From Arcicella aurantiaca (lineage in GTDB: Bacteria; Bacteroidota; Bacteroidia; Cytophagales; Spirosomataceae), in contig NZ_QGGO01000037.1 in assembly GCF_003148625.1 (NCBI RefSeq), positions 1-56,878 of the forward strand: a stretch of DNA of 56,878 nt, read 5' to 3'. Below are positions 21,713 to 40,027 of the stretch, one piece after another. Every line of letters starts with the position of its first letter. The first letter of the stretch is position 1. The notes beneath the pieces were generated by a model. That model was given only the letters and a program-made list of their open reading frames with translations. It was not told where the DNA came from and searched no databases. Both the position numbers and the translations under genes were made by a program.

Positions 21713-22447
21713 ATGAAAATTCAGAATATACATACGACTGATTTACGTCCAATTTTTGTGAAAAATCAAGAATTGGGAAGAGAAAGTATAGAAGACTATC
21801 TCAGAACGATTGGTAACTATAATGTTGAATATACATTGAATAGTTTAGTTAAAAGTGGTTTGCTCGAAAGAACAGGTAGAGGAAGATATTCACTTGGATT
21901 GAAACGGCAAATTTATTCCCCACCCTTAGAAAACGCAATAAAAGGAATTTACGGATTAATTCAAGAAGAAAAGCCATTGCTTGAATGTTGTGTTTGGAGA
22001 ACCTCCATTATCAATGAATTTACCTTACATCAAGCAGGGCGTTTTGCCCAAATAGTTGAAATAGAGCGAGACGGATTAGAAGCAGTCTTTGATTTATTAC
22101 GTGACCATTACCCAAATGTTTATCTGAATCCATCGGATGAATTATTGGATAGATATATTGCCTACCAGAATGATGCTATCATTATTATTCCTTTGACCTC
22201 CGAAGCTCCAATGCAAAAAATAGAAGGAATTAGAACCACAACGATTGAAAAACTTTTGGTGGATTTAATAGTGGATATTAAACTTTATGAGTCATTTCAA
22301 GGAGCGGAACTTGCTTATATTATCAAAGAAGCCTTCCGAAAATATCCTATCAATAAGGATAAAATGTTACGATATGCCAGACGGCGACGTAAAGGTAATA
22401 AAGTTGAAATTATGATTGAATTGAGTTTACAAACAGAAGATTTTTAG
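21713..22447 (+). CDS. AbiEi-like antitoxin/repressor of type IV TA system
   Basis: 244 residues. The N-terminal ~60 residues have a winged-helix pattern (YNVEYTLNSLVKSGLLERTG, then RGRYSL). The rest resembles the AbiEi/DUF6577 C-terminal region, with a conserved WRTSIINEF segment and TTIEKLLVDLIVD. AbiEi proteins repress their own operon and counter AbiEii without binding it. The gene is six bases upstream of the AbiEii-like nucleotidyltransferase, and an inverted repeat covers the promoter, both as expected. Confidence 0.75.
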   Translation: MKIQNIHTTDLRPIFVKNQELGRESIEDYLRTIGNYNVEYTLNSLVKSGLLERTGRGRYSLGLKRQIYSPPLENAIKGIYGLIQEEKPLLECCVWRTSIINEFTLHQAGRFAQIVEIERDGLEAVFDLLRDHYPNVYLNPSDELLDRYIAYQNDAIIIIPLTSEAPMQKIEGIRTTTIEKLLVDLIVDIKLYESFQGAELAYIIKEAFRKYPINKDKMLRYARRRRKGNKVEIMIELSLQTEDF

Positions 22448-22452
22448 AAATT

Positions 22453-23514
22453 ATGATTGATAAAGAAGTAAGCCACTCCCTTGAATGGCTCAATAAGTTT
22501 TCGCAGTTGAACAATGGGGCGGATAAAATTTTGGTTGAAAAAACTGTGAGGGCATTAACTTTGTTGGAAGGTTTAGTAGAGAGTAAGCTAAATTTTATTT
22601 TCAAGGGTGGAACAGCATTAATGTTGATGCAGCAAAATAATCCCAAAAGGCTTTCAATTGATATTGACATTATTATCCCCAAAGTATCGGATAGTTTATT
22701 AGAGACTTTAAAGCAAGTGTCAGAAAATCAGGGATTTATTAGAGTTGAAGGGCAAGAAAGAAAAACTGAGATAAATATTACAAAAGAGCATTTTAAGTTT
22801 TTTTATATTCCTACACACCTAACAAATCAGTCAGAAGATTATATATTATTGGACATCTTGTATGAAGAGAACCCATACCAAAAGATAGTTGAAACACCCT
22901 TCAATTCACCATTTTTGTTTCAAGTCGGTGAGGTTCAAACGGTTAAAACTCCCTCATTTGAAGATATACTTGGGGATAAAATGACAGCTTTTGCACCCAA
23001 TACAACGGGTATTCCATACTATAAAGGGAAGTTTTCAAAAAGTATGGAGATTATTAAACAATTGTATGACGTTGCTAATTTATTAGAATCAATCAATGAC
23101 CTTTCCATCGTTAGAAAAACATTCAAACGTTTGGCGGAAATAGAATCACAATATCGTCAATTAGAGATTACGCATAATGATGTATTGCAAGATACTTACC
23201 AAACGTGTTTATGTTTGGCTTTGCGAGGAGCAGATGGAATCGGCAATTTTGAAGAACTCCTTTCTGGCATCAAAAAGGTAAGCCGATTTATGTTTTCTGA
23301 AAATTTTAGCTATGAAAAAGTGGTGGTAATGACAGGTAAAATTGCCTACCTCACCCGTTTAGTAGCTAATGATGAAACCGAAGTAAACCTTTTTAAAGGT
23401 GCAAATACCGTTAAAGATTTAACAATAGTACAACCACACAATACCAAACTAAATAAACTGAAAAAGCAATACCCAGAGGCTTTTTGGTATTGGTGGTTGG
23501 CGACAAAAAATTAA
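22453..23514 (+). CDS. abiEii: AbiEii-like nucleotidyltransferase toxin
   Basis: 353 residues. The nucleotidyltransferase signature is clear: KGGTALMLMQ (GGT at 52-54) followed by RLSIDIDIII with the two metal-binding aspartates D70 and D72. The EDILGDKMTAFAP segment is typical of the AbiEii/AbiGii family. These toxins transfer nucleotides, in known cases to tRNA acceptor ends, and halt translation during phage infection. Catalytic residues are intact, and the upstream AbiEi-like gene supplies the antitoxin. The pair could both defend the host and hold the plasmid. Confidence 0.85.
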   Translation: MIDKEVSHSLEWLNKFSQLNNGADKILVEKTVRALTLLEGLVESKLNFIFKGGTALMLMQQNNPKRLSIDIDIIIPKVSDSLLETLKQVSENQGFIRVEGQERKTEINITKEHFKFFYIPTHLTNQSEDYILLDILYEENPYQKIVETPFNSPFLFQVGEVQTVKTPSFEDILGDKMTAFAPNTTGIPYYKGKFSKSMEIIKQLYDVANLLESINDLSIVRKTFKRLAEIESQYRQLEITHNDVLQDTYQTCLCLALRGADGIGNFEELLSGIKKVSRFMFSENFSYEKVVVMTGKIAYLTRLVANDETEVNLFKGANTVKDLTIVQPHNTKLNKLKKQYPEAFWYWWLATKN

Positions 23515-25173: not shown

Positions 25174-26316
25174 ATGATATATCTTGATAATAACGCCACT
25201 ACCCAAATTGACCCCGAAGTTTTGGCAGTAATGCTTCCATTTCTTACTGATAATTTCGCCAATGCAAGTTCCACGCACGCTTTCGGTTTGGGAGCAAATG
25301 ATGCTGTTAAAAATGCTCGCCAACAAGTTGCAGATTTAATTGGCTCACAACCTCACGAAATTGTTTTTACTTCTGGGGCTACCGAGGCTATTAATTTGGC
25401 TATCAAAGGTGTTGCCGAAAATTATTCTTCAATTGGTAAACATATCATTACCGTTCAAACAGAACACTCAGCCGTTTTAGATGTCTGTAAATATCTGGAA
25501 ACCAAAGGTTTTGACATTACATTTCTGCCTGTTCAATCAGATGGAATGATTGATTTAGCTGTTTTCAAAGCCTCATTACGCCCTGATACTATCTTGGTAT
25601 CGGTGATGTTAGTCAATAATGAATTAGGCACAATTCAGCCTATTAAAGAAATTGCGAAACTTACGCATGAAGTTGGGGCGTTATTTATGACTGATGGAAC
25701 GCAAGCCGTTGGAAAATTGCCTATCAATGTTGATGAATTAGATATTGACTTAATGACAATGTCTGCCCATAAATTCTACGGCACAAAAGGCGTGGGAGCA
25801 TTATTTGTCCGACAAAGACGAAATAGGCTCATAAAATTAGGAGCATTACTACATGGGGGCGGACATGAAGGTGGCAAACGTTCTGGCACATTGAACGTTG
25901 TAGGTATAGTAAGTATGGGAAAAGCCGCCGAATTATGTCAGCAGAAAATGAAGGTAGATACCCAAAGTATCGGAGCATTGAGAGACGAATTAGAAAAGGC
26001 ACTATTGCAAATTCCAGATACTTCTATCAATGGAAATACTGTTCATAGGCTTTATAACACCACAAATATCAAATTTAAAGGATGTGATTCCGATGCTTTG
26101 ATTATGGGTTTACAAGATATTGCAGTTTCCAATGGTTCTGCCTGTACTTCAGCTTCTATTGACCCATCGCACGTGCTAATGGCTTTAGGAATGACTGAAA
26201 CCGAAGCCTTTTCATGTATTCGTTTCAGCTTTGGACGGTTCAATAAAGCGGAAGAAATACCTGTGGTGGTGGAAGCTGTGCGGAAAGTGGTGGAAAGTTT
26301 GAGGGCTTGGAATTAG
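25174..26316 (+). CDS. dndA: Cysteine desulfurase DndA (IscS-like)
   Basis: 380 residues, a full-length class V PLP aminotransferase. It opens MIYLDNNATTQIDPEVL. The PLP-binding lysine lies in SAHKFYGTKGVGALF (K200), and the catalytic cysteine in NGSACTSASIDPSH (C324), a long mobile loop of the NifS/IscS type. It takes sulfur from cysteine as a persulfide and passes it to DndC for DNA phosphorothioation. It is on the plus strand, convergent with the dndC-dndB operon, so it has its own promoter. A general IscS is the alternative, but the location makes DndA much more likely. Confidence 0.88.
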   Translation: MIYLDNNATTQIDPEVLAVMLPFLTDNFANASSTHAFGLGANDAVKNARQQVADLIGSQPHEIVFTSGATEAINLAIKGVAENYSSIGKHIITVQTEHSAVLDVCKYLETKGFDITFLPVQSDGMIDLAVFKASLRPDTILVSVMLVNNELGTIQPIKEIAKLTHEVGALFMTDGTQAVGKLPINVDELDIDLMTMSAHKFYGTKGVGALFVRQRRNRLIKLGALLHGGGHEGGKRSGTLNVVGIVSMGKAAELCQQKMKVDTQSIGALRDELEKALLQIPDTSINGNTVHRLYNTTNIKFKGCDSDALIMGLQDIAVSNGSACTSASIDPSHVLMALGMTETEAFSCIRFSFGRFNKAEEIPVVVEAVRKVVESLRAWN

Positions 26317-26479: not shown

Positions 26480-27757
26480 TTATTTAATAATTATTTCAGG
26501 AATATCATGTTTGATATTGCCCGAATTTTTGATATATCCTTCTTTCAATTTCTTAATGGAACTTATACCTAATAGACCAAAATGGTAAAGAAGATAATTA
26601 GTAGGAAGACCCGAATTTATAATATTATTTTTTGAGGGATTCCAAAATGTATAATGCCAAAATTCATTTTCAATATTTGGTTCAATTAAGGATATTTTCG
26701 TAAGTTTTTCTAAATTATTTTCTTTTTTTAGTTTACTGTATAATAAGGCAAATGCTTCTTGCCCAAGAGGTCTCAAATAAAATTTTCCACCATTTTTTCT
26801 TTCTAAACCGAGACTTGGGTTTGTTCCATTTACAAATTCCTTAGCATCAGAAAAACATTCAAAAAATTTATCCCAAAAAGAAAATACTACTTTTTGCCAA
26901 GATTCTATGACATTATCATCTGGTCGTATGCGAACTTTTACATTTTTAAAATCCTTATATACGCTATCATTATCTATTAGTACCTCATTAATACTATATA
27001 ATGTTAGAACAGTTGTAAATTTATCGTTGAATTGGCTTGGATTGAGGTTTTTTGCCTTATTATAAGCAATCAATTCTTTCCCCTTAAATAAGGGATGTTC
27101 TTCAATTAACTTTCTAACTATAATAGCTGATAAATCGTCTTCATCTAAAAGGATATTTTCCCCTAATGATACAGGTTTTGCATGGCGATTAATGGTTGAA
27201 AATAATCTTCGAGTTCTTTCTCTACCTAAATCTGAATCTTCATGAATAATCAAAGTTATTCCTACCGTTTGTTCACCAATTGTAGGTTCTTGTAAAATAG
27301 CATTTCTAAGACCTTTAAGTCTATGTTGTCCATCTAACACAAAAAGAGTTTCTGTCCCAGTAAGTTTTACGACTCCAAAAGCCTTTTCAAAATATTCTAA
27401 GCTATCATCATCAATACTATCATCTTGACCGATTCTATCTACATCTATTGTAAGCCAGTCAGGGTTTCCTCCAAAAATTGCAACAGTTAAATTGTTAATA
27501 TACTTATCCGTTTGTGAAAGTAAATAATTCGTAATTGGAACAAGTCTTGTAGGGTCAAAAGCTCGTTGTAATAAATTATTCACACCTTTTTTTGAGTAAA
27601 TTTCTTCTACTTCTTCAACTGTCTTAATCCGAAAGTCAGGTTTCTCATTTGTGCCTAAGTTTTCTACAATATCAGAAACTTTCATTACCGTCTGATAGTA
27701 TCTCCATTGCCCAAATTTTCCAGTAAGTGAGGGTAAATATATATTTTTGTTCATCAT
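26480..27757 (-). CDS. dndB: DndB, DGQHR-domain regulator of DNA phosphorothioation
   Basis: 425 residues, with the DGQHR signature VLDGQHRLKGL (142-146), the R-T-R-R-L-F-S-T-I-N-R-H pattern (TRRLFSTINRHAKPVS) and the usual length of DndB. In Dnd systems DndB represses the dnd operon and tunes modification. It begins MM, with the upstream GIY-YIG stop sharing one base (TAATG), so the two are translationally coupled. It is the last gene of the minus-strand operon, not next to dndC as in many loci. Confidence 0.85.
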   Translation of the reverse strand: MMNKNIYLPSLTGKFGQWRYYQTVMKVSDIVENLGTNEKPDFRIKTVEEVEEIYSKKGVNNLLQRAFDPTRLVPITNYLLSQTDKYINNLTVAIFGGNPDWLTIDVDRIGQDDSIDDDSLEYFEKAFGVVKLTGTETLFVLDGQHRLKGLRNAILQEPTIGEQTVGITLIIHEDSDLGRERTRRLFSTINRHAKPVSLGENILLDEDDLSAIIVRKLIEEHPLFKGKELIAYNKAKNLNPSQFNDKFTTVLTLYSINEVLIDNDSVYKDFKNVKVRIRPDDNVIESWQKVVFSFWDKFFECFSDAKEFVNGTNPSLGLERKNGGKFYLRPLGQEAFALLYSKLKKENNLEKLTKISLIEPNIENEFWHYTFWNPSKNNIINSGLPTNYLLYHFGLLGISSIKKLKEGYIKNSGNIKHDIPEIIIK

Positions 27758-28281
27758 TATCTTGGACTATAAAGTTTAACGTGTTGTTTTACAGAATCTG
27801 CACGGAATCGGTCATTCATTGGCGGAATAATCATATCAATTAAGTCAAATTCCAAAGTTGTCAAATCTTCTTTCGTTACATTATTAGTTTCAAAATAGTG
27901 AAACGATAATTTTTCTTTCCACAATAAAACCATGATTCGTTTAAGTTGGTCAGATGGTAAATCAGAATGTTCATAATGAAAATATTGACCAAATCTTTTT
28001 TGCAAATTTTTAGTTTGTCCAATATATAAAATATGCCGATTTTGATTATTTACCAAATTGGCATTGCTTGGCTTCAATATAAACATATAAATCCCTTGTG
28101 TATTAGGCATTTTAGAAATATTGGATTGTTGAAAAGGAATTTCCAGCCAATTAGGATTGAATGTCTCAATCATTTGGGTAGGGTTTTCCCAAATACGATA
28201 ATCTAAGCAAATAGTCTTCCATCTTTGCTTTGGGTCATCTAAAATCTGTTGGTTAGTTATAGAAGGGGTGTATAAAGACAT
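27757..28281 (-). CDS. GIY-YIG nuclease-like protein coupled to dndB
   Basis: 174 residues from the ATG at 28281. The GIY-YIG catalytic frame is plain: TQGIYMF (GIY at 63-65), then LYIGQTKNLQKRF (YIG at 86-88) with the conserved arginine. A glutamate that could be catalytic lies in TTLEFDLIDMIIPPMNDRF, followed by an asparagine. Its stop overlaps the dndB start. The island has no DndFGH, so this small nuclease is a good candidate for the restriction arm that reads phosphorothioate state, perhaps held by DndB. That role is inference; a repair or homing nuclease is the alternative. Confidence 0.75.
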   Translation of the reverse strand: MSLYTPSITNQQILDDPKQRWKTICLDYRIWENPTQMIETFNPNWLEIPFQQSNISKMPNTQGIYMFILKPSNANLVNNQNRHILYIGQTKNLQKRFGQYFHYEHSDLPSDQLKRIMVLLWKEKLSFHYFETNNVTKEDLTTLEFDLIDMIIPPMNDRFRADSVKQHVKLYSPR

Positions 28282-28360: not shown

Positions 28361-28552
28361 CTACAAACTCTTCCAAAACTGCCCCACCTCAAACAATTCC
28401 GCTTTCTTAAATTCCTTTAAATTACTCACCGCTTGCCCTTTTTGGATAGCTTCCATATTTCGGGCGAGAATAGTATTATCTTTTTCCCCAAGTCCTAAGA
28501 ATTTTGACATCATTTTTAGATTGGTTTTATCTTTAATATCCATTAAAATGTA
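28361..28552 (-). pseudogene. Duplicated 3' end of dndE/herA
   Basis: The last 60 codons of the dndE/herA gene recur here almost unchanged. MDIKDKTNLKMMSKFLGLGE through VGQFWKSL differs in one residue (NLKEFK for NLKGFK) over 60, and about 190 bases are roughly 95% identical to 30399-30589. There is no upstream part of the gene. The copy marks the right-hand limit, on the minus strand, of the inserted DGQHR/TM module. Confidence 0.9.
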
Positions 28553-28601
28553 TAGATAGGGGCTATTTCATCTGACTAATAAAATCCTTATAATGGATAA
28601 T

Positions 28602-29807
28602 TTATCTTCCAAGTAATCTATTCATCTCTGAAATTTCTTCTTGTTTATTCCCTGTGTACATATTATTTGCGAAGAGAAGAAGATTTTTAACACGACTTCT
28701 TCCAACACCAGAAGCCTGAAAATAGTTATCTGAGAAATTTACTGAGGATGCTTTTTGCAAAACTTCAACAAATCTTGTTTTTGATAAGTTTGCGGATTTT
28801 AAGGTGTTATCCTCTTTATAATCCATATTTAATAAATCTCTAAGAAAGTCAAATAATCCTTGAACCCCAACCGTCTTAAAAATATAAGATGACGGAGTAG
28901 CATGACTAAAAAGACATTCTTTTGCTGATTCGAAAAAATTGAAAATTATTCGATAAATAACAGAATCTTGATTATTTAAATATAACATTCTCAACGGCGT
29001 ATTGTCATACTTCAATGCGTCTCTACTTCGCTCTGATATATATATTTTTTGCAATTCATATTTATCTCTTTTAGGGTTACTTGAAATTAGCCTTAGAATG
29101 CCGTCAACAATAGTTGCGGTTGAAATTCTCCATTCTGAATCTTGTAATGTTTGCCTTAGTACTTCATCTATTTGAGGGGCTATTTTAATATGATGAAAAA
29201 AGGGACTATCAGAATCTTCATTAAATTTCTTATACAAAGCTATTGCTAATTTATCGGGTGACCACGATTCACTCTTCTCATTATCTACATTAAACCCAAA
29301 CTGCTCATAGGCTAAACTCTTATCTACTTTTCTCTGATTTGAATTTATCGTTGCAAATAAAAATGCTTGCAGTGCATTAGGAAGGTCAATATATACCGAG
29401 CAAACTAAATCCATTTCCTGTGCCGCATAGTTCGCATCTTTAAATCCAAACAGTCTATGCTGACCATCTATAATTGAGGTAATTCTGGACTCTGTTGGAA
29501 TAATTAATTTACCTTTTTCATATTTCCACCTAATTGAATCGTCATCAACATTAAAACCATTTTCATCATAATTGGCAGCAAGTATAATCGAATTAGGAAT
29601 TGCAGCATCATAACCTTCCACAAACTCTTTGATTTCCTTTACTCTCCTATCTTCATCAAGTAAACGTTGTGAACCTACGAGTTTACCATTTTCGTATCTT
29701 ATAGGGCTTGTAAATGTTAACTCTAACAAATCCTTTGCTTTCATTACACATAAATAAAAAACACCAAATGGTTGTTTTACCTCTAAAGCATCTAATTGTC
29801 TTTTCAT
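28602..29807 (-). CDS. Second DGQHR-domain protein (DndB/DpdB-like)
   Basis: 401 residues with SIIDGQHRLFGF (DGQHR at 114-118) and the downstream AFLFATINSNQRKVDKSLAY motif, equivalent to the S-x-I-N pattern of DndB. It is otherwise clearly different from the dndB product. The DGQHR fold is related to ParB/sulfiredoxin-like proteins, and members act in DNA modification systems. Its first codons overlap the end of the membrane-protein gene (ATGA), making a tightly coupled pair. The pair is bounded by the two copies of the dndE end, so it arrived as a unit. Confidence 0.8.
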   Translation of the reverse strand: MKRQLDALEVKQPFGVFYLCVMKAKDLLELTFTSPIRYENGKLVGSQRLLDEDRRVKEIKEFVEGYDAAIPNSIILAANYDENGFNVDDDSIRWKYEKGKLIIPTESRITSIIDGQHRLFGFKDANYAAQEMDLVCSVYIDLPNALQAFLFATINSNQRKVDKSLAYEQFGFNVDNEKSESWSPDKLAIALYKKFNEDSDSPFFHHIKIAPQIDEVLRQTLQDSEWRISTATIVDGILRLISSNPKRDKYELQKIYISERSRDALKYDNTPLRMLYLNNQDSVIYRIIFNFFESAKECLFSHATPSSYIFKTVGVQGLFDFLRDLLNMDYKEDNTLKSANLSKTRFVEVLQKASSVNFSDNYFQASGVGRSRVKNLLLFANNMYTGNKQEEISEMNRLLGR

Positions 29808-30379
29808 TCTGCGGATAAATTAAATTCACTTTCATCACCTTTTAATTGACCAATTATAGTTGGATTAGCATCCTTTGGGTTACGCTCAAGATTCAAATTA
29901 TCATTATTTGCATTAGCTATCCACCAAGAACAAAAAGCCAATAGTGTCCCCCCAAAGGCAAATACATAACTATAGGCGTTATGAATTATAGCTATTAGGA
30001 AAAATAACGTAATTCCCAATAAAATTAATATTATGCCAAAAGCTTTTAAATCTTTCTGTTCTGGTTGACTTGATAAAATTAAATCTACCGATGATGATGC
30101 TATTAATGCTATAAAATATGTTCCAAGACTAAGAGCTATATTCCAATGATTAATAAGGCAGTAATTATTATTGATTTCAAAATAAATAGTAGTATAAACT
30201 CCAATACCTCCCATCAGGGCAACTAATCCTAAGAAGTACATTATAAAAGTAGGAGATTTAAGCGGCTTATTTACTCTGGAACCTATTTCTGATGCAATAT
30301 TTGTCCACCTTGTTAAATCTGTTTTTTCCTTGTTATACCCTTCTTTAAAGCCTTGTAAAATAGAACTCAAAATACTCAT
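29804..30379 (-). CDS. Four-helix membrane protein paired with the DGQHR protein
   Basis: 191 residues with four predicted membrane helices: about 46-67 (IMYFLGLVALMGGIGVYTTI), 80-98 (IALSLGTYFIALIASSSV), 113-131 (FGIILILLGITLFFLIAII) and 135-151 (SYVFAFGGTLLAFCSWW). The N-terminus is amphipathic and charged, and the C-terminus is acidic. I recognise no family. It overlaps the DGQHR gene by four bases. Small multi-helix proteins next to a DNA-state sensor are often pore-forming effectors in defence systems, which makes this a candidate killer subunit. That is inference only. Confidence 0.65.
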   Translation of the reverse strand: MSILSSILQGFKEGYNKEKTDLTRWTNIASEIGSRVNKPLKSPTFIMYFLGLVALMGGIGVYTTIYFEINNNYCLINHWNIALSLGTYFIALIASSSVDLILSSQPEQKDLKAFGIILILLGITLFFLIAIIHNAYSYVFAFGGTLLAFCSWWIANANNDNLNLERNPKDANPTIIGQLKGDESEFNLSAE

Positions 30380-30398
30380 AGTTTATATCGTTTAAAAT

Positions 30399-31982
30399 TT
30401 ACAAACTCTTCCAAAACTGCCCAACCTCAAACAATTCCGCTTTCTTAAATCCTTTCAAATTACTCACCGCTTGCCCTTTTTGGATAGCTTCCATATTTCG
30501 GGCGAGTATAGTATTATCTTTTTCCCCAAGTCCTAAAAATTTTGACATCATTTTTAAATTGGTTTTATCTTTAATATCCATTAAAAATGCCGTTTCACAA
30601 AGACTTGAAAAATCAAAACTTGGCTGATTAAATTCCTCAATTCCTTGTGATAATAACACCACACTAACTCCTTTTGAGCGTATTTCTCGCAAAATTTTCT
30701 CTAATAAATCTTGGGCTTTGCGGTCTTTAAAAATCACGTGAGCTTCATCAATCAACAGCACATAACGGATAGCTTGTAATTTGTCATTGACAGGTGCATT
30801 CTCCATGTTCATAAAGTTGTTGTAGATGTAATTGATAATCAAAAACACTGACGTAAACCTTATAGCATTAGGTAAATCTCCTGATAAACTAAGATAATAA
30901 TTTTGATTAAAAATGCTTTTTTTAGCATCGTTTTTGGTCTCGAAAAGGTCTAACTCACTCAAACTTTCCAATATCTCTTTCAAGGTACTGGCTTTGCTAC
31001 CTTCCATTTCAAGCACACGGTCATAAATATCTTTGAATGAAGGATATTCACCATTTTTTAATCCTTGAAATACATCTTTTGTGGCATCCCGTAGCGTTTG
31101 TTGTTGGTTCTTGCCAATGTTGGAATAATTGGTAATTATATCCACCAATTTATTAATTCCCATGATTTTGTTTTTCTCATTCACTGTGTCAATAAACGAC
31201 ATCGGATTCAATGGAAAAGGCACTTGCGGGGCATCAATAAAAGTAGTTTGAGTATTCTCAAAAAAGGGAGTAAGTGCTGCCACATCGTCTTTTTTCAAAC
31301 CTTTAAAGTCAAGGTAAATAAAATTGACCGAACCGCTTGATACTTCCACAAACTGTCGAAGAATCTCCAATGCAAATTGTGTTTTTCCTGTTCCTGAGTT
31401 CCCAGCAACAGCTATATGGGCATTATTGTGTAAGTTTGTATCATTTAAAGTTGCATAAATCGGGCTTTCATCTTTCAAGTTTTTTCCGATTAACATTTTC
31501 AACGCACCTTCAAAATATCCCTTGTTTGAGACTTTAGTATGACGAATCCTTTCATCAAATAAAATAGGTTCATTTGATGAAACTGCTTGTTCCAAAGAGT
31601 CAATTCCACGTTCAATATGCTCCAAAAGAAAATCCGATAAATTGTAATTTGAACTTTCGGAAAACAATTTTTCCAGTAGTCTCAAACCATCGTCAATATG
31701 AAGTTTGAAGTATTTAGGAATATCCGAGTCGGTCTTATAAATATCGTAAAATTGACAAATCAGAGCGATATAATAGCTTCTATAATTGCCGACAATGGTA
31801 ATTTCTTTGTAAGGATTTCCCTTTGTGTCTTCTGGTTTGGACAATGAGAGTTTTCTTCCCCTTGTGAGCGAATAAGCAAGGGCAATACGCATAAGAATAT
31901 TTTTGGAAGTTACACTAAAACGACTTTGTAATTTAGCCAAAATCGCTTCGGTTTCTTCGGAAGTAGAAACGTTAATCTGCAT
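30399..31982 (-). CDS. dndE: DndE fused to a HerA-like ATPase
   Basis: 527 residues. The first ~125 residues resemble DndE (MQINVSTSEETEAILAKLQS, then LTRGRKLSLSKPED and later YFKLHIDDGLRLLEKLF). The remainder is a HerA/FtsK-type ATPase: Walker A AVAGNSGTGKT (194-201), IYLDFKGLKKDD, and Walker B YVLLIDEAHVIF, then LSQG as a sensor region. DndE binds nicked DNA in the modification complex, and the fused ATPase could move along DNA. The start overlaps dndD by 11 bases. The last 60 codons are duplicated at 28361. Confidence 0.85.
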   Translation of the reverse strand: MQINVSTSEETEAILAKLQSRFSVTSKNILMRIALAYSLTRGRKLSLSKPEDTKGNPYKEITIVGNYRSYYIALICQFYDIYKTDSDIPKYFKLHIDDGLRLLEKLFSESSNYNLSDFLLEHIERGIDSLEQAVSSNEPILFDERIRHTKVSNKGYFEGALKMLIGKNLKDESPIYATLNDTNLHNNAHIAVAGNSGTGKTQFALEILRQFVEVSSGSVNFIYLDFKGLKKDDVAALTPFFENTQTTFIDAPQVPFPLNPMSFIDTVNEKNKIMGINKLVDIITNYSNIGKNQQQTLRDATKDVFQGLKNGEYPSFKDIYDRVLEMEGSKASTLKEILESLSELDLFETKNDAKKSIFNQNYYLSLSGDLPNAIRFTSVFLIINYIYNNFMNMENAPVNDKLQAIRYVLLIDEAHVIFKDRKAQDLLEKILREIRSKGVSVVLLSQGIEEFNQPSFDFSSLCETAFLMDIKDKTNLKMMSKFLGLGEKDNTILARNMEAIQKGQAVSNLKGFKKAELFEVGQFWKSL

Positions 31983-34077
31983 TATAAAGGTTGTTGTATG
32001 TGGTAAAAAACTCCTGTGGAGAAGTCTCTAAAAATGTTGATTTATCAGGGTCAATGTTATTAATCAAAAATGCTTTGGCAATTTTTGGTTCAAGCAATTT
32101 GAACTCTTTTTGAGTTAATTCTTTATTAACCAATGGAAATAAAATTACTTGGTCTGAAATATCTGGATAAAAGAATTTGATAATGTTCAATGCGTGTTCT
32201 TCATCAAATTTTTGCATTGGCGAGTCTATAAAAACAGGAAATTCAATTTCAGATTCTTTCACCAAACCATGAAGTAAAGCTGTGGCGTACATTTGTTGCT
32301 CCCCTTTAGATAAGCCTTGTTTTTGAATAACGCCAGACTTTTTATTCATCAAAATGATGTCAATAAACTCCCCTGTAATATCAACTTTGACTTCATTAAT
32401 AAAGCCTTTTTTGTGCATGAGTGTTTGTAAACCAGTCAAAATCTGTTTTTCCAAAGAAACCTTTTTTCTTTCTTTAAACTGATTGATGAATGTTTTTATT
32501 TTTTTAATCTGTATCGTTAAATATTCGTCTTTTTCCCTATTTACTTCCGACGCTTTAAGTTTACTCGTAATCTCACTTTTTATCCGTTTTTTATTCTCAA
32601 TATCCTGTTTTGACTTTCCAATGCCCATAAGCAAAAGCTCTAAATGTGCCTCAATTTTGAGAATTTCTCTCTCAATCAAATCTCTCCTCTCACGGTCTTC
32701 TCTCACAACGGCATCTTCTGCTTTGGCTTCGGCATCTGATATTCTTCTCCTAATTTGAGTCCATTCGTTCCGTACTTGATTATTTTGATAGGTAAGACTT
32801 TTAAATTTCTCTTTAAATGAAAATTTCAATTTTTGAATAAAAGCATCTAACTCATTTTTCTCTGATACAGAAAAATCATGAATTGGCTTAAAATCTAAGG
32901 GTAAATCAGGAATATCAGCGTAAAAATGTTTCTTCACTAATTTTGAAATAGTATTATAGTAAAAATCAGTAATATCTCTTGTGAGGACACCCTTAAAATT
33001 CTTTTGTTCAGTAATGAGGTCAGTTATGATATTTTCAGAAACTGCCAACACTTTTTCTTGATTTAAAAAATTAGCTTTATAGCTAAGTTCATCATTTACT
33101 TGCTCTGAAACCTCCGACAATTTTCCGCCTGCAATAACGAATGGGATTATTTCCATATAATCCTGTATTTCAGAAACAATTTCCTTTAATCTTGAATCAA
33201 GATTTCTTTCAATTTCTCTAATTTCTTCTAAATCATCAACGCTCATTGTATTACCCAAGCGTATTAAACGCTCTTGTAATTTGCTTGACTCAAAGCGTAA
33301 TTCATCTTTTTTATCTCTAAGTTCTCCGATTGTTTGTTCATTAATAGAGATTCCTAAGTCAAGGTTTTTAATTTCGGCTTCCAGTAAGTTAAGTTTCTCC
33401 TTTTCATCTTTACTCGCATTTTTTGACCTTATTCTTTTTTGAATATCATCAAATTCTTCTTTCAGCAATTCATATTTTTTAATGCCTAAAATTTCGGAAT
33501 AGGCTCTACTAAGGTTTCTTCTTTGGTCGTCTGAATTTGCTTCGGCAAGTGTTACAATTTTTTCAGCATCAAAGAAGAAAAACTTTGCGATTTCAATTGG
33601 TAATAAATGTTCTCTGATGAAAATTTCGCCACTTGCTACTTTTGTGTCAGCCAATTCTCTTACCATCTCATTTTCAAACCCATCAACCAATATTTCTAAA
33701 TCTTCACCTGCCGAAGCGTGAAAGGTTCTTTTAATAGAAATCTCATCACATGATAATTCTGGTAAAATAGCATCAGTAATAGTTATTTTAACTGAGAACT
33801 GTTTTTGCCCATCAGCCTTAGCTTTTCGATTTAAACTATTTGGAATATATTTTGGATAACCACCTTGGTCGGCAATTTCTTTTCTATATAAATCATCAAC
33901 TTCTTGCATCTGTTTTCCATACAAACACCAAACTAACGACATTAGGAAAGTAGTTTTTCCAAAGCCATTTTTTCCACTAATAATATAAATATTTTTGTCT
34001 TCTGAAATCGTTAAGTCTATCTTGTTATAGTCCTTATAAATTCTGAAATTTTCTAACTCTATTGATTTGATAATCAT
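31972..34077 (-). CDS. dndD: DndD, SMC/RecN-like ATPase of DNA phosphorothioation
   Basis: 701 residues. Walker A is SGKNGFGKTT (35-42), near the N-terminus. Long coiled-coil arms follow (about 200-480). The ABC signature is LSKGEQQMYATALLHGLV, and Walker B FPVFIDSPMQKFD is near the C-terminus. The order head, coiled coil, head is that of SMC-type proteins, and the length is normal for DndD. It supplies ATP-driven DNA handling to the Dnd complex. It sits between dndC (104 bases upstream) and dndE (overlapping by 11 bases). Confidence 0.9.
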   Translation of the reverse strand: MIIKSIELENFRIYKDYNKIDLTISEDKNIYIISGKNGFGKTTFLMSLVWCLYGKQMQEVDDLYRKEIADQGGYPKYIPNSLNRKAKADGQKQFSVKITITDAILPELSCDEISIKRTFHASAGEDLEILVDGFENEMVRELADTKVASGEIFIREHLLPIEIAKFFFFDAEKIVTLAEANSDDQRRNLSRAYSEILGIKKYELLKEEFDDIQKRIRSKNASKDEKEKLNLLEAEIKNLDLGISINEQTIGELRDKKDELRFESSKLQERLIRLGNTMSVDDLEEIREIERNLDSRLKEIVSEIQDYMEIIPFVIAGGKLSEVSEQVNDELSYKANFLNQEKVLAVSENIITDLITEQKNFKGVLTRDITDFYYNTISKLVKKHFYADIPDLPLDFKPIHDFSVSEKNELDAFIQKLKFSFKEKFKSLTYQNNQVRNEWTQIRRRISDAEAKAEDAVVREDRERRDLIEREILKIEAHLELLLMGIGKSKQDIENKKRIKSEITSKLKASEVNREKDEYLTIQIKKIKTFINQFKERKKVSLEKQILTGLQTLMHKKGFINEVKVDITGEFIDIILMNKKSGVIQKQGLSKGEQQMYATALLHGLVKESEIEFPVFIDSPMQKFDEEHALNIIKFFYPDISDQVILFPLVNKELTQKEFKLLEPKIAKAFLINNIDPDKSTFLETSPQEFFTTYNNLYNAD

Positions 34078-34181: not shown

Positions 34182-35555
34182 TTATTTTTTCTTATTTATT
34201 GCCTCTTCAACTAAATTCTCAATATCGCTTGAAAGTCCCCTTTTTTTGACCATTAATGTTTTGGTTTTCAGAACATTGAGGGATTTTTGGATAAAGTCAA
34301 AATCGTCTTCATCTACGAAAACCTCTCTAAGTAATTCTTCTTCTTGTCTGAATTTTTCTTCGTGTTTACTCATGTCTAAATGGGTATTATAAATAGAATT
34401 ATAAATGTCGGCAACTTTTTGTCTAAGAATTCCGTCTCTGTACCAAATCACTTGTATTGCCACTAATTCTTGGTGTGAAATTAATTGAATTGTCTCGCCT
34501 TGTGTTTCTTGGATTTCCTTTTGAGCTTCTAAAACCATTCTTAATATTTTGGCACGATAAGCAGGAATATAAGCCCCCCAAGAACCATCTTCCCTTTCTT
34601 CCTCAGTCTCTTCTTCAATTTTAGCTTTCTTTTTAGCTACTTCGCTTTTTGTTTGCTTAAATCTACGGTGTCTTCTAAAAATCTCCCTATTTTCACGGAT
34701 ATTTCGCCCATCTACCAATTCATCACGTAAATCTAAAAGTGGATACATCCATTCTTCACCATTTAAAATCAACCCTTCCATTGATTTATCCTTCTTTACT
34801 ACTGTACAAACCCAACATCCAAAACGGCTATTGCCACAACTTGGTGTTTTTTCATCAATAACTAAAGGACAATCACCCGAATTGGCATTTTTATAAAGCG
34901 TAACCAATTCTTTGTTTGTACCACCCCAAGGCGGTGGCACCTGTTGAAGGTATTGCCAAACTTCGTTAGTTTCAATATCTTTTATGGGTGCATAAACGTA
35001 GGCACTTGGCAATAAATGTTTTCGCAAACGTTGTCCTTTTACAGCGTGTTTTTTAATAGACTTTGCTCGATTTTGACTTTCAGCAGACCGAGTTCCCAAC
35101 AAAATAATCACTTCCCCTTTTTCATCAATCTTGCTTTTAATAAAATGAGTAGTAGGGTTTATTTTCAATCTTTCCGTACACCATCTAAACGTATTATTAG
35201 GGGCAGGATAGCCTTTTCCAATCAAATTTACCCAAAAAGTATCTTCTAAACGTGGGGTTGTTTGGCGTACAAAAAATGGCAATGATTGTTCAGCGGCTGC
35301 AATTTTTACTCTTTCAAGTGTTCTATTGATAAAATCGACAATGTGAGGATTTTCAACCATTGTGTCATTACAAATAATATAAATTTCACGGGTTAAAAGT
35401 TCAGCAGGTATTTTTTTGAGTGCAATCCAAACTAACTGCAAAAGCATCGTGGAGTCTTTTCCACCGCTAAAACCAATTATCCAAGGACGGGGATTGTCGT
35501 CATACAGATATTGGTCAATAATTTCTTCTTCTATAAATGGGATTATTAAGGACAT
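34182..35555 (-). CDS. dndC: DndC, PP-loop sulfurtransferase of DNA phosphorothioation
   Basis: 457 residues. The PP-loop FSGGKDST (30-36) activates the DNA phosphate with ATP, as in PAPS-reductase-fold proteins. Four conserved cysteines (C in RWCTERL, GDCPLV, PSCGNS, GCWVC) fit the 4Fe-4S site of DndC. The C-terminal third is charged and includes an acidic KIEEETEEEREDG segment. It is the first gene of the minus-strand operon, taking sulfur from DndA. The 104-base gap to dndD is the only sizeable gap among the first three genes. Confidence 0.92.
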   Translation of the reverse strand: MSLIIPFIEEEIIDQYLYDDNPRPWIIGFSGGKDSTMLLQLVWIALKKIPAELLTREIYIICNDTMVENPHIVDFINRTLERVKIAAAEQSLPFFVRQTTPRLEDTFWVNLIGKGYPAPNNTFRWCTERLKINPTTHFIKSKIDEKGEVIILLGTRSAESQNRAKSIKKHAVKGQRLRKHLLPSAYVYAPIKDIETNEVWQYLQQVPPPWGGTNKELVTLYKNANSGDCPLVIDEKTPSCGNSRFGCWVCTVVKKDKSMEGLILNGEEWMYPLLDLRDELVDGRNIRENREIFRRHRRFKQTKSEVAKKKAKIEEETEEEREDGSWGAYIPAYRAKILRMVLEAQKEIQETQGETIQLISHQELVAIQVIWYRDGILRQKVADIYNSIYNTHLDMSKHEEKFRQEEELLREVFVDEDDFDFIQKSLNVLKTKTLMVKKRGLSSDIENLVEEAINKKK

Positions 35556-36038: not shown

Positions 36039-36491
36039 TTATTGTTTTTTAGACAATAGCCTATTACGTTCTTTGGTATAATTAACTCCAATTTTCCAAC
36101 CATCTTGATAAACCATCGGTTGTTCAAATTGAAGAGAATCTGTATTGAACCATATTTTAACAATCAAGATTGAAGAATCTTTTTTGATTTTGTTTTCGCT
36201 AACTATTTGAGTATCTTTAATTTGTCCATTTCTGGTTGCTTGATTGAGCATCAAGTTTAGATATAAGGGTGTTGCTCTGATTTGCTGATTGAAGGCTCTG
36301 GACAAATGTATTCTGAAATCATAAATTGTGTCTTTATTCACAATTTTATTGGCATTTTTAAAAATTTCAGTAGCACTTTCTTTAATTCCTTTCTGATTTG
36401 GCAATGCACTTTTTTTCCCCCCAATCAAACTATAAAGGAATAAAGAGGGCAAAATCAAGAAAAGAGGGAATATTTTGAGAAGCCTTTTCAT
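36039..36491 (-). CDS. Conserved-looking tra-region protein with N-terminal membrane helix
   Basis: 150 residues with one hydrophobic N-terminal segment (IFPLFLILPSLFLYSLIGG) and a soluble remainder, including an FNTDSLQFEQPMVYQDGWK segment. It is the last gene of the tra operon, four bases after the VirB5-like gene. Its role in conjugation is unknown; a periplasmic channel accessory or immunity-like protein is possible. I recognise no family. Confidence 0.6.
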   Translation of the reverse strand: MKRLLKIFPLFLILPSLFLYSLIGGKKSALPNQKGIKESATEIFKNANKIVNKDTIYDFRIHLSRAFNQQIRATPLYLNLMLNQATRNGQIKDTQIVSENKIKKDSSILIVKIWFNTDSLQFEQPMVYQDGWKIGVNYTKERNRLLSKKQ

Positions 36492-36495
36492 AGTT

Positions 36496-37737
36496 TTAGA
36501 ATTTAATTTTTGCCAAAGAGTTACGCATTAATTTTGCCTGATAACGAGACTCCATTTCTTGTTGTAATAGCGTTTTCGTGGTGGCATCTTCCATTAATTT
36601 ATCCCCTTTTTCTTTGTAATCTGTCGATTCATTCATTAAATGAATAGCTGCCGTTTGTGCTTGTATTCGTTCGCCCGTAGTCATTCTTAGCCCTGTTTTG
36701 CTGATACTAAATCCGCTTGGATTAGAAGGGTTTAAGCCCACACCGGGATATGTACCACTTGCCTGATTTAATTTTTGGGTAACTTTATATTGATACGCAT
36801 TATTGGCATCTTCCAAATCCCGATTTGCCTTTTTCAGCATTCCTTCATAACCTGTTGGTTCAACATCTTCGAGAAAACGCATGAATGATTTTAACCTGAT
36901 AATCTCTTGTTGCAAAACATCATCGGGCATATTCATATAAATTGCTGTCATTAGTCCACCCATTGAGCTACTAAAAACATCTCCGCCAAACAAAGACCCA
37001 ATATCAAAACTATCATCTGTTCCAAAAACATTATCCAAACTGAAAGGTGATGAATTGCTAATCTGCATCGGTTTTCCATTTGAATCATCCGAAACGGCAT
37101 TGCTTAGTACAATTGCCTGATGATATAATTCATCTGAAATTTTATAATAGGCTAAGGCAGTTTGAAATTTTTTCTTCTGCATGGTATTCTGCAATCCATA
37201 AATTTTTGCAAATTCATCTTTCTTGGCTTTTGCAAAATCATCATGGTTACTTGCCGACAATTCGGGAGAAGTACCATCATAGAAGAAATCATACATTTGT
37301 TGCCCTCCTTGCTGACTAACTTCTCCTTGTGAATTTTGTGATAAAATCTGGTCTAACTTATTCAAAAAAGTAAGCTGCTTATGGTAATCACTCAGTTTTG
37401 AACTGACAACCTGATTTGTTTTCATAAAAATGGATAAGTCATTAAATTTATACTTACCATCTTTACTCACCAGATTTTCAAACTCACTAATATCTCTTAG
37501 AATTTCTTCCACTTCTTTTCCAAGACTAAGAATGGATTGGGTGTTTGCCTGAGTTCGATTATTTATTTTATTGCCATTTTTTAGTTGGACAAGTTGATTC
37601 TTTGCCTTCTCAACTAAATTTTTCAACTCCATCAATCGCTGAATAGCTGAAACGTCTATGCTAATTTGTGAAAATCCTGTTTTGGGTATCATTATCAAGC
37701 AGAGAATGATTAGTCCCATTTTTGTTAATTGTCTCAT
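36496..37737 (-). CDS. Secreted coiled-coil tra protein, possibly VirB5/TrbJ-like
   Basis: 413 residues with a signal peptide (MRQLTKMGLIILCLIMIPKT, then GFSQ), followed by a helical region rich in lysine and glutamine (MELKNLVEKAKNQLVQLKNG). Several more helical stretches and a C-terminal helix (KEKGDKLMEDATTKTLLQQE) follow. The signal peptide plus long alpha-helical body in a type IV secretion operon resembles VirB5/TrbJ minor pilus proteins, but no signature confirms this. It is separated from traM by 310 bases that carry iterons. Confidence 0.55.
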   Translation of the reverse strand: MRQLTKMGLIILCLIMIPKTGFSQISIDVSAIQRLMELKNLVEKAKNQLVQLKNGNKINNRTQANTQSILSLGKEVEEILRDISEFENLVSKDGKYKFNDLSIFMKTNQVVSSKLSDYHKQLTFLNKLDQILSQNSQGEVSQQGGQQMYDFFYDGTSPELSASNHDDFAKAKKDEFAKIYGLQNTMQKKKFQTALAYYKISDELYHQAIVLSNAVSDDSNGKPMQISNSSPFSLDNVFGTDDSFDIGSLFGGDVFSSSMGGLMTAIYMNMPDDVLQQEIIRLKSFMRFLEDVEPTGYEGMLKKANRDLEDANNAYQYKVTQKLNQASGTYPGVGLNPSNPSGFSISKTGLRMTTGERIQAQTAAIHLMNESTDYKEKGDKLMEDATTKTLLQQEMESRYQAKLMRNSLAKIKF

Positions 37738-37769
37738 TATTAAGTTGTTTAAAAGTCAATATTCTTTCG

Positions 37770-37983
37770 GTCGCAATGTTATAACGGTTGCGAAAAGATT
37801 TTTTAACCTCTTTTTTGAAGCTAAAAACCATAATTTACGGTGAATTATATGTGTATTTCTGTCAATTTGTTGTCACACTTAGGTATTTAAAGGTTAAAAT
37901 TTATTCTTTCGGTCGCAATCTTATACAGTTTTAAGTCGCAATGTTATAATGGCATACCTCTTCCAGTCGCAATCTTATAACGG
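37770..37983 (-). repeat. Second iteron cluster, inside the tra operon
   Basis: Four copies of the plasmid iteron lie in reverse orientation: 37770-37787, 37912-37929, 37935-37952 and 37966-37983. The last is a perfect reverse complement of CCGTTATAAGATTGCGAC. The first and third have ATGTT for ATCTT, and the third also ends AATGG for AACGG. The second ends ACAGT instead of ACGG. They occupy the gap between traM and the VirB5-like gene. The initiator protein should bind here, which could control copy number by handcuffing or repress the last two tra genes. Confidence 0.85.
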
Positions 37984-38047
37984 TTAAAACCGATTGCGTT
38001 TTAAGGGTAATTTTATGTTTTAGTTGCTATTTAGTAACTATATTTTC

Positions 38048-39214
38048 TCAATTTTTTACTACAAAAAATACTTTATAACCATCTTCAAGCATGATTTCTT
38101 GTGCCTTTTTTCGATTAGTCCCAGACGATAAAGCTCTTGATAACCCACGCCCCAAACTTTTTCCTGCGTATGCGATTCCTGCGTATGGAATATAAGACAA
38201 GGCTTGATTCGAAATATCATCCAATGCTTGCGTAGTACCTTGTCTAACATCAGTCCGAATTGGATTATCTCCATCAAATGCCAATCCTTCCACCATATCT
38301 TGGTCGAGTGTTTTTAATTTTAAAGGAGTAGTTTGATTATTGATTTTAATGGAAGCGATTTCAAACGTAACCCTATTACTCCCTAAATATGCCAAGCCAG
38401 TAATTAATGTGTTTCGAGGAACATAATTTCCATTAATAGTTGTCGCTTCTGTAATTCTGAAACTAACCCTTTTCCCATTTTTTATTAACTGATTTCCATT
38501 CACAACTCCCGTAACATAATGTTCATTAGCTTGCGGTTTTGCAGATTGCTCCTTTGAATCAGCTTTTTTATTATCCGCTTTAACAGTGTTAAAATAATCA
38601 TCTATGTTTGCGGATTTGGTTTGTCCTTCATTTCCAATTGATTCTGTAATTGGTTCAGTAATTCTTGTTTTCGGTTTTGATTCCTCCAAAACCCAATCTT
38701 TTTTTTGTTTGGGTTTTCTGTTTTTGGAACGGTCAGTAATTTTTCTTTCTTCATAAGTCAAATTTTTATTAGTGGCAGGTATCATCTTCACTGAATCACT
38801 CTTGCCAATTTCAGAGCGATTACCATTTGCTGGGGAACTGTCGGTAATTTCATAAGATTTTTGCCAATCCATTGAAACAGGATTGTCGTTCATTTTTTTC
38901 TTGATTGTTTCATCTGCACTATTTAGGTGAGAATATTTTTTATTTGCCTGAGAACTATCTTCTTTAAAAGATGGTGTAGTAGGAACTGGTACTTCTTGCT
39001 CGCCCAAAGCCATTTCTTCTTTCGCTCTTTCAATGGTTGTCCATGCCACGAAAATCGTTAGACAAAGCCCTACTCCTATGGCAATTAATGCAACCTTTCC
39101 TTGGCTAAGTAAACGCAAATGCTCTTTTAAACTAATTTTTTCGTTCTTAGGTTGTTTTTGTTCGGAAGGTTTTTCAATAGTAAAGACCTCTTTTATTTTT
39201 TGGAAAATGTCCAT
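38048..39214 (-). CDS. traM: TraM, VirB10-like channel protein
   Basis: 388 residues with the VirB10 plan. A cytoplasmic start of ~40 residues leads to a membrane helix (VALIAIGVGLCLTIFVAWTT), a long Lys/Glu/Pro-rich periplasmic linker, and a C-terminal beta domain typical of conjugative transposon TraM (VTGVVNGNQLIKNGKRVSFR, then RNTLITGLAYLGSNRVTFEI). It would join the inner- and outer-membrane parts of the mating channel. Its start is three bases after traN. Confidence 0.85.
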   Translation of the reverse strand: MDIFQKIKEVFTIEKPSEQKQPKNEKISLKEHLRLLSQGKVALIAIGVGLCLTIFVAWTTIERAKEEMALGEQEVPVPTTPSFKEDSSQANKKYSHLNSADETIKKKMNDNPVSMDWQKSYEITDSSPANGNRSEIGKSDSVKMIPATNKNLTYEERKITDRSKNRKPKQKKDWVLEESKPKTRITEPITESIGNEGQTKSANIDDYFNTVKADNKKADSKEQSAKPQANEHYVTGVVNGNQLIKNGKRVSFRITEATTINGNYVPRNTLITGLAYLGSNRVTFEIASIKINNQTTPLKLKTLDQDMVEGLAFDGDNPIRTDVRQGTTQALDDISNQALSYIPYAGIAYAGKSLGRGLSRALSSGTNRKKAQEIMLEDGYKVFFVVKN

Positions 39215-39217
39215 GTT

Positions 39218-40027
39218 TTATAGCAAGTTTGCTGTTAATATTTTCTTGGCAGGAATATTCATTGTGATTAATCTTGCCCCTTTTCCCTCTCTAAAAACTA
39301 CTTCTAAATAATCGTTTTCCGTAGCTGAATATAATGGAATGGCATACATAAAACTTTCCATTCCCCCTGCTCCTATCATCATCGGGGCTTCAAATTCAAT
39401 AGGTTCTATTTCTTGTTGTTGAGGCGTTAATTGATTTCTCTTTTTCCGTTTTACATGGGTTTTATAAATGAATGAAACGTAATCAACTTGGTAAATAATG
39501 GTGGATTGATTCATAACCTCAAATTTCAAATAGGTTGCTTGTTGGTCATTGAAAACATTAACCAACTTCACAATTACATCACTATTTTTTTCCTTCAAGT
39601 TGATATTGCTTGACGATTCTTTTAATCTTCCAAGGGATAATTTGGGAGGTTTTTCAGTATTCGTTTTAGGAGTTAAATCAATTTTTGGTAAAGCTCTAAA
39701 ATCATAGAAAGGCTTATCTATTTTCTCACGATATGCTACATACCCTTTGAAAATAGTATTGCCATACTGAATTAGCATAGTAGAAGGCTTTGCAAAAGGA
39801 TTGGTTGCTTTTAGGAACATAATTGAGCCATTTTCAATTTTCCCAATGTAGTCTTTGTTGCCAATATCAAATAGACTGATTGACTCAGGCAAAATCACAT
39901 ACACGGTATTTTCACGACCAACCCAAATTGTGTCCACGAGTGAAGAATCATTAGAACCCAAAGAATTCTGAGAGAATGAGTAAGGATGAAGGCAATTCAG
40001 TAGCAAGATAAATAAGAGGTTTTTCAT
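39218..40027 (-). CDS. traN: TraN, VirB9-like channel protein (DUF4138)
   Basis: 269 residues with a short signal peptide (MKNLLFILLLNCLHPYSFSQ) and the DUF4138 pattern: DTIWVGRENTVYVILPESIS, FLKATNPFAKPSTMLIQYGN, and LKFEVMNQSTIIYQVDY. Such TraN proteins are the outer-membrane/periplasm partner of TraM in Bacteroidota conjugation, equivalent to VirB9. The gene is close to traK upstream and traM downstream. Confidence 0.88.
   Translation of the reverse strand: MKNLLFILLLNCLHPYSFSQNSLGSNDSSLVDTIWVGRENTVYVILPESISLFDIGNKDYIGKIENGSIMFLKATNPFAKPSTMLIQYGNTIFKGYVAYREKIDKPFYDFRALPKIDLTPKTNTEKPPKLSLGRLKESSSNINLKEKNSDVIVKLVNVFNDQQATYLKFEVMNQSTIIYQVDYVSFIYKTHVKRKKRNQLTPQQQEIEPIEFEAPMMIGAGGMESFMYAIPLYSATENDYLEVVFREGKGARLITMNIPAKKILTANLL

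Follow-up and report, generated by a model that had tools for sequence, protein, structure and literature searches.

Evidence for a cassette-exchange site at the 3' end of dndE-herA in DNA phosphorothioation loci, and a putatively displaced cassette in Arcicella aurantiaca

Introduction

In the DNA phosphorothioation (PT) locus, or Dnd locus, of Arcicella aurantiaca, the end of the dndE gene is present twice, with two further genes between the copies. How did this arrangement arise, and what do the genes that follow dndE contribute to the system? We examined a 56,878-nucleotide stretch of DNA carrying this locus, hereafter the window (contig NZ_QGGO01000037.1 of assembly GCF_003148625.1), together with related loci. 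The minus strand of the window contains, in this order, dndC, dndD, dndE fused to herA, a small membrane protein gene, a DGQHR gene, a remnant of dndE, a GIY-YIG gene and a DndB-like DGQHR gene, with a dndA-like gene facing them. A preliminary description made from the sequence alone had proposed that the membrane protein and DGQHR genes form a new defence pair, swapped in by recombination at the end of dndE. Our comparison supports the end of dndE as a site at which whole gene cassettes are exchanged, a property that seems general, and reveals that the pair itself recurs behind dndE in other Dnd loci.

The end of dndE is present twice in the window

The repeat consists of two direct copies of 187 bases (28362-28548 and 30400-30586, minus strand) with an identity of 96% and a spacing of 2038, and was the sole repeat family found between 20 and 38 kb at a minimum length of 40. 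The duplication had thus been recognized correctly. The copies match at 179 of the 187 bases, the stop codon counted. As a self-BLAST of the repeat gave an expectation value (E) of 8e-85, the resemblance is not due to chance, and the eight differing sites and the distinct flanks of the copies make an assembly artefact unlikely.

The copy at 30400-30586 is the 3' end of the complete gene (30399-31982, minus strand). This gene, previously given as dndE/herA, is a single fusion of dndE to a HerA/FtsK ATPase gene (PF08870, 83.6 bits, with matches to HerA-like ATPases). The other copy is a remnant that lacks a start codon and retains the 62 final codons of dndE in an intact frame. Only the membrane protein gene (29804-30379) and the DGQHR gene (28602-29807), both on the minus strand, lie between the copies; they overlap by ATGA, as had been noted, and neither encodes a recombinase. 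A spacer (28549-28601) separates the stop codon of the DGQHR gene from the remnant. The earlier account of the region after the remnant had to be corrected, as two genes follow here on the same strand: a GIY-YIG nuclease-like gene (27757-28281; PF01541, 28.2 bits against a cut-off of 22.6), which leads a second cassette, and a second DGQHR gene of the DndB-like kind (26480-27757; PF14072, 101 bits; TIGR03187, 97 bits).

Concerning the eight differences between the copies, six are silent, one is an exchange of the stop codons TAA and TAG, and one is an exchange of Gly and Glu. Gly is found in the complete gene, and Glu in the remnant and in the related loci L018, L020 and L019. Seven of the eight differences are thus neutral for the protein, so that the remnant looks like the end of a different dndE allele rather than a decaying duplicate. 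When L018 and L020 were used to polarise the differences, five could be polarised and three could not. The complete gene carries the derived state in four of the five and the remnant in one, so that the end of the complete gene looks like the newcomer.

Different cassettes follow related dndE genes

We collected 105 DndE-HerA loci, comprising the window, 24 loci from whole genomes and 80 from contigs (the best 80 of 161 relatives). Twelve duplicates were dropped, leaving 93 distinct loci, among which the near-copies L141, L142 and L146 were retained. The relatives on contigs were retrieved with a DndE-HerA alignment as query; a DGQHR protein query of the genome contigs retrieved nothing.

The preliminary description had called for a comparison of the interval between dndE and the GIY-YIG gene in related loci, and this revealed that different genes occupy the position after dndE. 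A membrane protein gene with a DGQHR gene came first in 27 of the 93 loci by automatic calling and in 28 by hand, a GIY-YIG gene with a DndB-like DGQHR gene in 15, a ParB-like gene of the kind found in L019 with an unknown gene in 13, and a DGQHR gene in two. Three loci reached the contig end, and the remaining 33, whose genes were identified in part only, had another gene or no gene on the same strand. One of the two loci led by a DGQHR gene is L140, in which automatic open reading frame picking overlooked the membrane protein gene; the tree labels used below carry this single error. Where the pair was called automatically (27 loci), the start of the DGQHR gene lies -25 to +15 nt from the end of the membrane protein gene. 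Both DGQHR cassettes were found stacked only in the window and in L021, which is the same contig as L094 and belongs to Arundinibacter roseus. We rejected an insertion unique to the window, as the pair also heads the slot in 26 other loci, none of which has a clear dndE repeat. It recurs as a cassette associated with dnd, and the reading of it as a novel insertion is consequently wrong.

Scanning further cassettes against Pfam and PADLOC revealed HATPase with Methyltransf_35, an Mrr nuclease with HATPase, and PD-Lambda-5_A-like proteins. In L081 (11568-13801) and L137 (11590-13856), a gene for a GHKL-type ATPase and then one for a Methyltransf_35 protein lie straight behind dndE. L019 (12393-14451) encodes a ParB-like protein similar to PADLOC PD-Lambda-5_A and a 328-residue protein of no known family.

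Pairs of loci with more than 75% DNA identity over the last 600 nt of dndE and with enough downstream sequence numbered 131, and in 81 of them the first genes had no detectable similarity. In 77 of these 81 different-cassette pairs, which fall into 10 linked clusters, the end of the alignment fell in the interval from -20 to +30 nt around the dndE stop codon (median 0, extremes -60 and 188), and similarity resumed beyond the cassette in 22. L139 and L142, for instance, are 99% identical up to the stop codon, differ in their cassettes, and are similar again (92%) beyond them. As for the 50 pairs with related cassettes, 20 alignments extended past +100 and 30 also ended at the stop codon, as would be expected of diverged DNA.

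The DndE-HerA sequences of L139, L141, L142 and L146 are near-identical, although the records are labelled Bacillota (a metagenome-assembled genome), Bacteroides, Palleniella and Prevotella, and the cassette of L139 differs from that of the other three. Judged from these sequences, this appears to be a case of very recent spread and exchange.

We then asked how cassette type is distributed over phylogenetic trees. On the DndE-HerA tree (93 rows, 90 of them labelled; built by a quick method that gave long-branch warnings), the cassette labels required 39 changes, compared with a minimum of 4 and a mean of 46.6 for shuffled labels. The label for the membrane protein and DGQHR pair taken alone required 21 changes (shuffled mean 22.1; 175 of 500 shuffles as low), and thus did not cluster above chance. 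On the DGQHR tree (52 rows), the partner labels required 7 changes against a shuffled mean of 24.0, and all 16 GIY-partnered DGQHR proteins, the group that includes the second DGQHR protein of the window, lay on one side of a branch with a support of 100. Given the few changes on the DGQHR tree and the many on the DndE-HerA tree, the pairs stay together and their link to dndE is often broken. Cassette type tracks the DndE-HerA tree weakly, close to randomly. Different cassettes behind similar dndE genes, homology that ends at the stop codon and weak tracking of the tree together support the earlier suggestion that the end of dndE is an exchange site, which seems to apply generally.

A clear remnant of a locus's own dndE end was found in the window only, among 91 loci scanned (protein E 4e-36, DNA E 3e-85). 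Other matches to dndE ends were short, the best being 40 residues in L121 (E 5e-4) at the protein level and 29 bases in L106 (E 6e-5) at the DNA level. dndA was matched in 32 loci, and in two of these, L020 and L092, its 3' end was present in a second copy. That in L020 (55 bp, 93% identity) flanks a YhcG/DUF1016 nuclease gene at about +2769 to +4112 relative to the dndE stop codon in the dnd orientation, and the other copy extends to the contig end; that in L092 (130 bp, 83% identity) flanks a KilA-N gene at +4491 to +5639 in the same orientation. In L037 and L077, dndA was in pieces rather than duplicated at its end. A footprint of the kind seen in the window is thus present at the other border of the slot as well. 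In the window this right-hand border would be the dndA-like cysteine desulfurase gene (25174-26316, plus strand; TIGR03235, 402.7 bits, below the cut-off of 480; PADLOC models SspA and DndA).

The membrane protein and the DGQHR protein

The membrane protein of the window has 191 residues and represents a family that we designate TMa. Its AlphaFold2 model (mean predicted local distance difference test score, pLDDT, 81) shows an N-terminal helix followed by four membrane-length helices. The four helices described earlier are therefore seen in the model, but a strict hydropathy cut-off flagged two of them in this protein, and three or four in many homologues. No Pfam family was found above its cut-off, and no NCBIfam or PADLOC model was matched. 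A known housekeeping membrane protein was rejected on this basis, with MFS_1 (E 5e-4) and others appearing below the cut-off. We could not assign the protein to the 2TM kind of effector from cyclic-oligonucleotide-based antiphage signalling systems (CBASS) either: it had no PADLOC effector match, its Pfam matches lay below the cut-off, and its Ruegeria homologue reached an E of only 0.009 with the 2TM effector model.

A second small membrane family, TMb, with the motif NGSLPIISFG, replaces TMa ahead of the DGQHR gene in L094 (11599-12216), L075, L076, L077, L095, L106 and L149. As a profile comparison of TMa and TMb gave a probability of 9.7% over 41 columns, a single membrane family was rejected and the two were treated as separate. 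Without detectable kinship, they partner the same DGQHR clade.

The DGQHR protein of the pair has 401 residues and a putative ParB-like fold. It matched TIGR04172 with 429.4 bits (E 1e-128) over 372 residues, just below the curated cut-off of 450, which its relative in L037 passes with 464 bits. It also occurs in the setting of that family, a dnd locus, and is a close kin of DGQHR_dnd_1 and not a formal member. The DndB Pfam family PF14072 was matched with 39.4 bits (cut-off 29.1), and the DndB equivalog TIGR03233 (cut-off 328 bits) gave no match at E 0.1. When the model of the protein (mean pLDDT 75) was searched with Foldseek, Noc, ParB and PadC ranked at the top, with probabilities of 0.85-0.91 and weak E values of 0.05-0.2. 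The roles given in the preliminary description, a pore former for the membrane protein and a sensor of the state of DNA for the DGQHR protein, are putative.

The pair in plasmids and other genomes

Relatives of the DGQHR protein were present in 35 plasmid records, of which eight were examined, seven of them annotated. A TMa-family gene lay directly upstream of the DGQHR gene in all seven annotated loci, which are proteobacterial (profile E 2e-10 to 2e-47 when these seven proteins were searched), and genes with a dnd or PT annotation adjoined the pair in each: dnd genes in Rhizobium phaseoli, R. leguminosarum, Aureimonas and Aliivibrio, a DndE-family gene in Mesorhizobium, and genes annotated as PT-associated or as a PT restriction enzyme in Ruegeria and Pontibrevibacter. 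In six of the seven, the pair lies outside the operon on the strand opposite to the dnd genes, and in Aliivibrio it is co-directional with dptGH. The pair occurs without the duplication, but is not always part of the dnd operon itself. In the unannotated record, from E. coli, the upstream frame was hydrophobic by eye and the DGQHR frame was interrupted by a stop codon. A search of plasmid records for DNA near-identical to the window segment gave no match.

In 395 genomes of the class, the membrane protein as a single query retrieved itself and one weak match (E 8e-4), and an alignment of the family gave matches in 10 genomes. Five of these, the window included, had E values below 1e-7, and all five adjoin DGQHR and dnd genes. 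Among the five weak matches (E 3e-4 to 6e-4), four were in frames of 610-866 residues, and the fifth (in genome G230) had no dnd or DGQHR match within 13 kb. These searches score few first-look candidates per genome, so that misses are possible. The preliminary description had called for a search for the pair outside Dnd loci; in the searches made, strong matches were found only in dnd loci.

Interpretation and alternatives

We propose that the 3' end of dndE-herA forms the left border of an accessory slot in the Dnd operon, with dndA as the right border in some loci. Whole gene pairs are swapped among related operons, as the comparison of loci shows, and the simplest mechanism for this exchange would be homologous recombination in the conserved border genes. 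In an ancestor of the window, dndE would have been followed directly by the GIY-YIG and DndB-like DGQHR genes, an order that is seen in 15 loci. A second cassette, consisting of a dndE end, the membrane protein gene and the DGQHR gene, would later have recombined in at dndE. If its right-hand junction bypassed the dndA border, the old cassette would have been pushed downstream, where it would now stand behind the 62 final codons of its former dndE. Each cassette would comprise a ParB-fold NTPase of the DGQHR/DndB kind, reading the state of nucleotides or DNA, and an output partner, the GIY-YIG nuclease in one case and a membrane-embedded effector in the other. Taken as a whole, with the slot, the stacked cassettes and the effector role, we regard this explanation as probable, though well short of certain.

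Several observations weigh against it. The dndE scar is a single clear case among the 91 loci. The polarisable sites, five in number, are few, and at two of the four with the derived state in the complete gene this state is shared by L019, a more distant relative. Total identities to the complete gene and the remnant hardly separate the copies (160 and 164 of 187 bases for L020, 159 and 159 for L018, 142 and 142 for L019). On the DndE-HerA tree, the five labels together are more clustered than chance, with none of 200 shuffles as low. Moreover, any recombination in a shared gene gives a border at the stop codon, which for this reason does not demonstrate a special site. A fold search of the PDB with the membrane protein model retrieved no solved fold at E 0.001. 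Finally, the pair can adjoin a restriction module, namely dptG/dptH in Aliivibrio and a PT restriction enzyme in Ruegeria and Pontibrevibacter, and its position beside restriction genes speaks against a role as a mere substitute for DndFGH.

In a search for dptF alone among the dpt genes (TIGR03238), it was not found in the genome of the window (99.88% complete); it was present in one of the 16 DndE-HerA genomes examined, not all of which were complete, and in none of 14 control genomes. As DptF was not found in 15 of the 16, the slot is a reasonable place to seek the output of the system. The membrane protein and DGQHR pair may be a PT-linked backup or abortive effector, a tentative proposal to which we give somewhat less than an even chance. 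Its slot mates, which are GIY-YIG, Mrr, HATPase and PD-Lambda-5_A-like proteins and two membrane families, favour this proposal. The simplest common reading of the occupants would be an effector combined with a ParB-fold NTPase acting as sensor or restrainer. We can go further only with more reserve. The dndE-herA stop codon could be a conserved dock for interchangeable PT-linked outputs, several of which are an effector with a ParB-fold sensor, and the pair a previously undescribed PT-gated membrane effector found across Bacteroidota and Proteobacteria. The window would then show an exchange under way, two outputs being present at once, and ordinary recombination at its 187-bp repeat could shed the newer pair and leave dndE intact.

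The main alternatives to the effector role are regulation of dnd expression and tethering to the membrane. In the first case, the pair might be a regulatory add-on, with a DGQHR protein that, like DndB, represses or tunes the transcription of dnd and a membrane protein that serves as an anchor or senses the envelope. The DGQHR protein does pass the DndB Pfam model. In the accessible text of PMC10853773 and PMC12704722, DndB is an ATP-dependent negative regulator of dnd, and the latter reports binding of ATP and GTP by a DndB-like protein. However, the window already holds a second DndB-like gene, and nucleases are among the proteins that take the place of the pair in the slot. Two unrelated-looking membrane families with one DGQHR clade also resemble exchangeable outputs, not a fixed anchor. 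We consider this explanation unlikely.

Tethering of DNA or of the DndCDE-HerA complex to the membrane in the manner of Noc, with incoming DNA scanned at the envelope, seems to us less likely still. The fold search with the DGQHR model ranked Noc and ParB first, and HerA/FtsK ATPases pump DNA according to the literature accessible to us; the same body of literature, however, describes Noc as binding the membrane itself. Noc needs no partner gene, and the fold matches are no better than E 0.05.

A simple local duplication of the dndE end, unrelated to the acquisition of the pair, is an improbable origin of the repeat. By the automatic count, the pair does stand first after dndE in 26 other loci without a clear repeat. 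Against this, the remnant precedes precisely the GIY-YIG and DGQHR pair that elsewhere follows dndE directly, and the differences between the copies, mostly neutral for the protein and mostly derived in the complete gene, are as expected for two alleles. A site-specific recombinase that inserts mobile cassettes at the dndE stop codon and leaves a displaced gene end, as with genomic islands, is highly improbable: complete gene, cassette and displaced 3' fragment do reproduce the layout of islands entering gene ends, but no recombinase is encoded between the repeats, 187 bp at 96% identity is long for a core site, and inspection by eye of the borders in five loci and the window revealed no common motif.

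Returning to the proposed exchange slot, the nuclease, membrane and ATPase cassettes that interchange directly behind a constant modification core would provide a short list of candidates for the effectors of restriction in Dnd systems that lack DndFGH. Near-identical cores with different cassettes would serve as natural swap experiments for testing them, and the conserved, unnamed membrane partner of DGQHR_dnd_1-like proteins is a concrete target.

Relation to known systems

In the accessible text of Rakesh, Aravind and Krishnan (2024; PMC10853773), DndE-HerA fusions are located next to a DndD-type ATPase, DndB is a ParB-superfamily protein, and nucleases including URI/GIY-YIG, proposed to be backup or suicide effectors, are found at the edges of dnd neighbourhoods. 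The window shares the HerA/FtsK-DndE fusion, the DndD-type ATPase, the DndB-like protein and GIY-YIG with the loci described there. Neither a membrane partner nor exchange at the dndE stop codon is described in that text, in which the word 'transmembrane' appears once, in the title of a reference. The family TIGR04172 is a 'hypothetical equivalog' named DNA phosphorothioation-associated DGQHR protein 1, a name in which a membrane partner is absent. We found no description of the membrane protein and DGQHR pair in the literature searched, beyond which most subscription papers lay.

A displaced cassette that stands behind a gene fragment has its closest analogue in the orphan cdiA-CT/cdiI modules of contact-dependent growth inhibition (CDI). 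According to the accessible text of PMC3150448, pairs are swapped behind a conserved gene, displaced pairs lie downstream behind a fragment of that gene, and homology ends sharply at a fixed point, as in the slot. In CDI, however, the toxin is the C-terminal part of the gene itself, whereas the slot holds separate genes past the stop codon. As for PD-Lambda-5, the ParB-like protein of L019 matches PADLOC PD-Lambda-5_A (E 1e-26) over only about 150 N-terminal residues, and its 328-residue partner has no PADLOC match.

Other features of the locus

Upstream of dndE-herA, on the same strand, dndD (31972-34077) matched TIGR03185 with 260 bits (cut-off 246), with PbeC as the best PADLOC model, and dndC (34182-35555) matched TIGR03183 with 464 bits (cut-off 290). 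The G+C content of the membrane protein and DGQHR pair is unremarkable (30-34%, compared with 29-37% in dndC to dndE). The spacer and leader sequences of the window had no significant match in the other loci compared. By eye, the active-site residues of the GIY-YIG protein seem intact. In the related locus L018 (6911-8460), the dndD match is limited to the last 91 codons and a gene for a 323-residue protein lies between dndC and the dndD fragment; this operon may be broken or remodelled. Elsewhere in the window, two adjoining genes (21713-23514) resemble by eye a toxin-antitoxin pair of the AbiEi/AbiEii type. Genes at 36039-40027 resemble, again by eye, those for transfer proteins of conjugative transposons, which suggests that the dnd operon is carried on a conjugative element.

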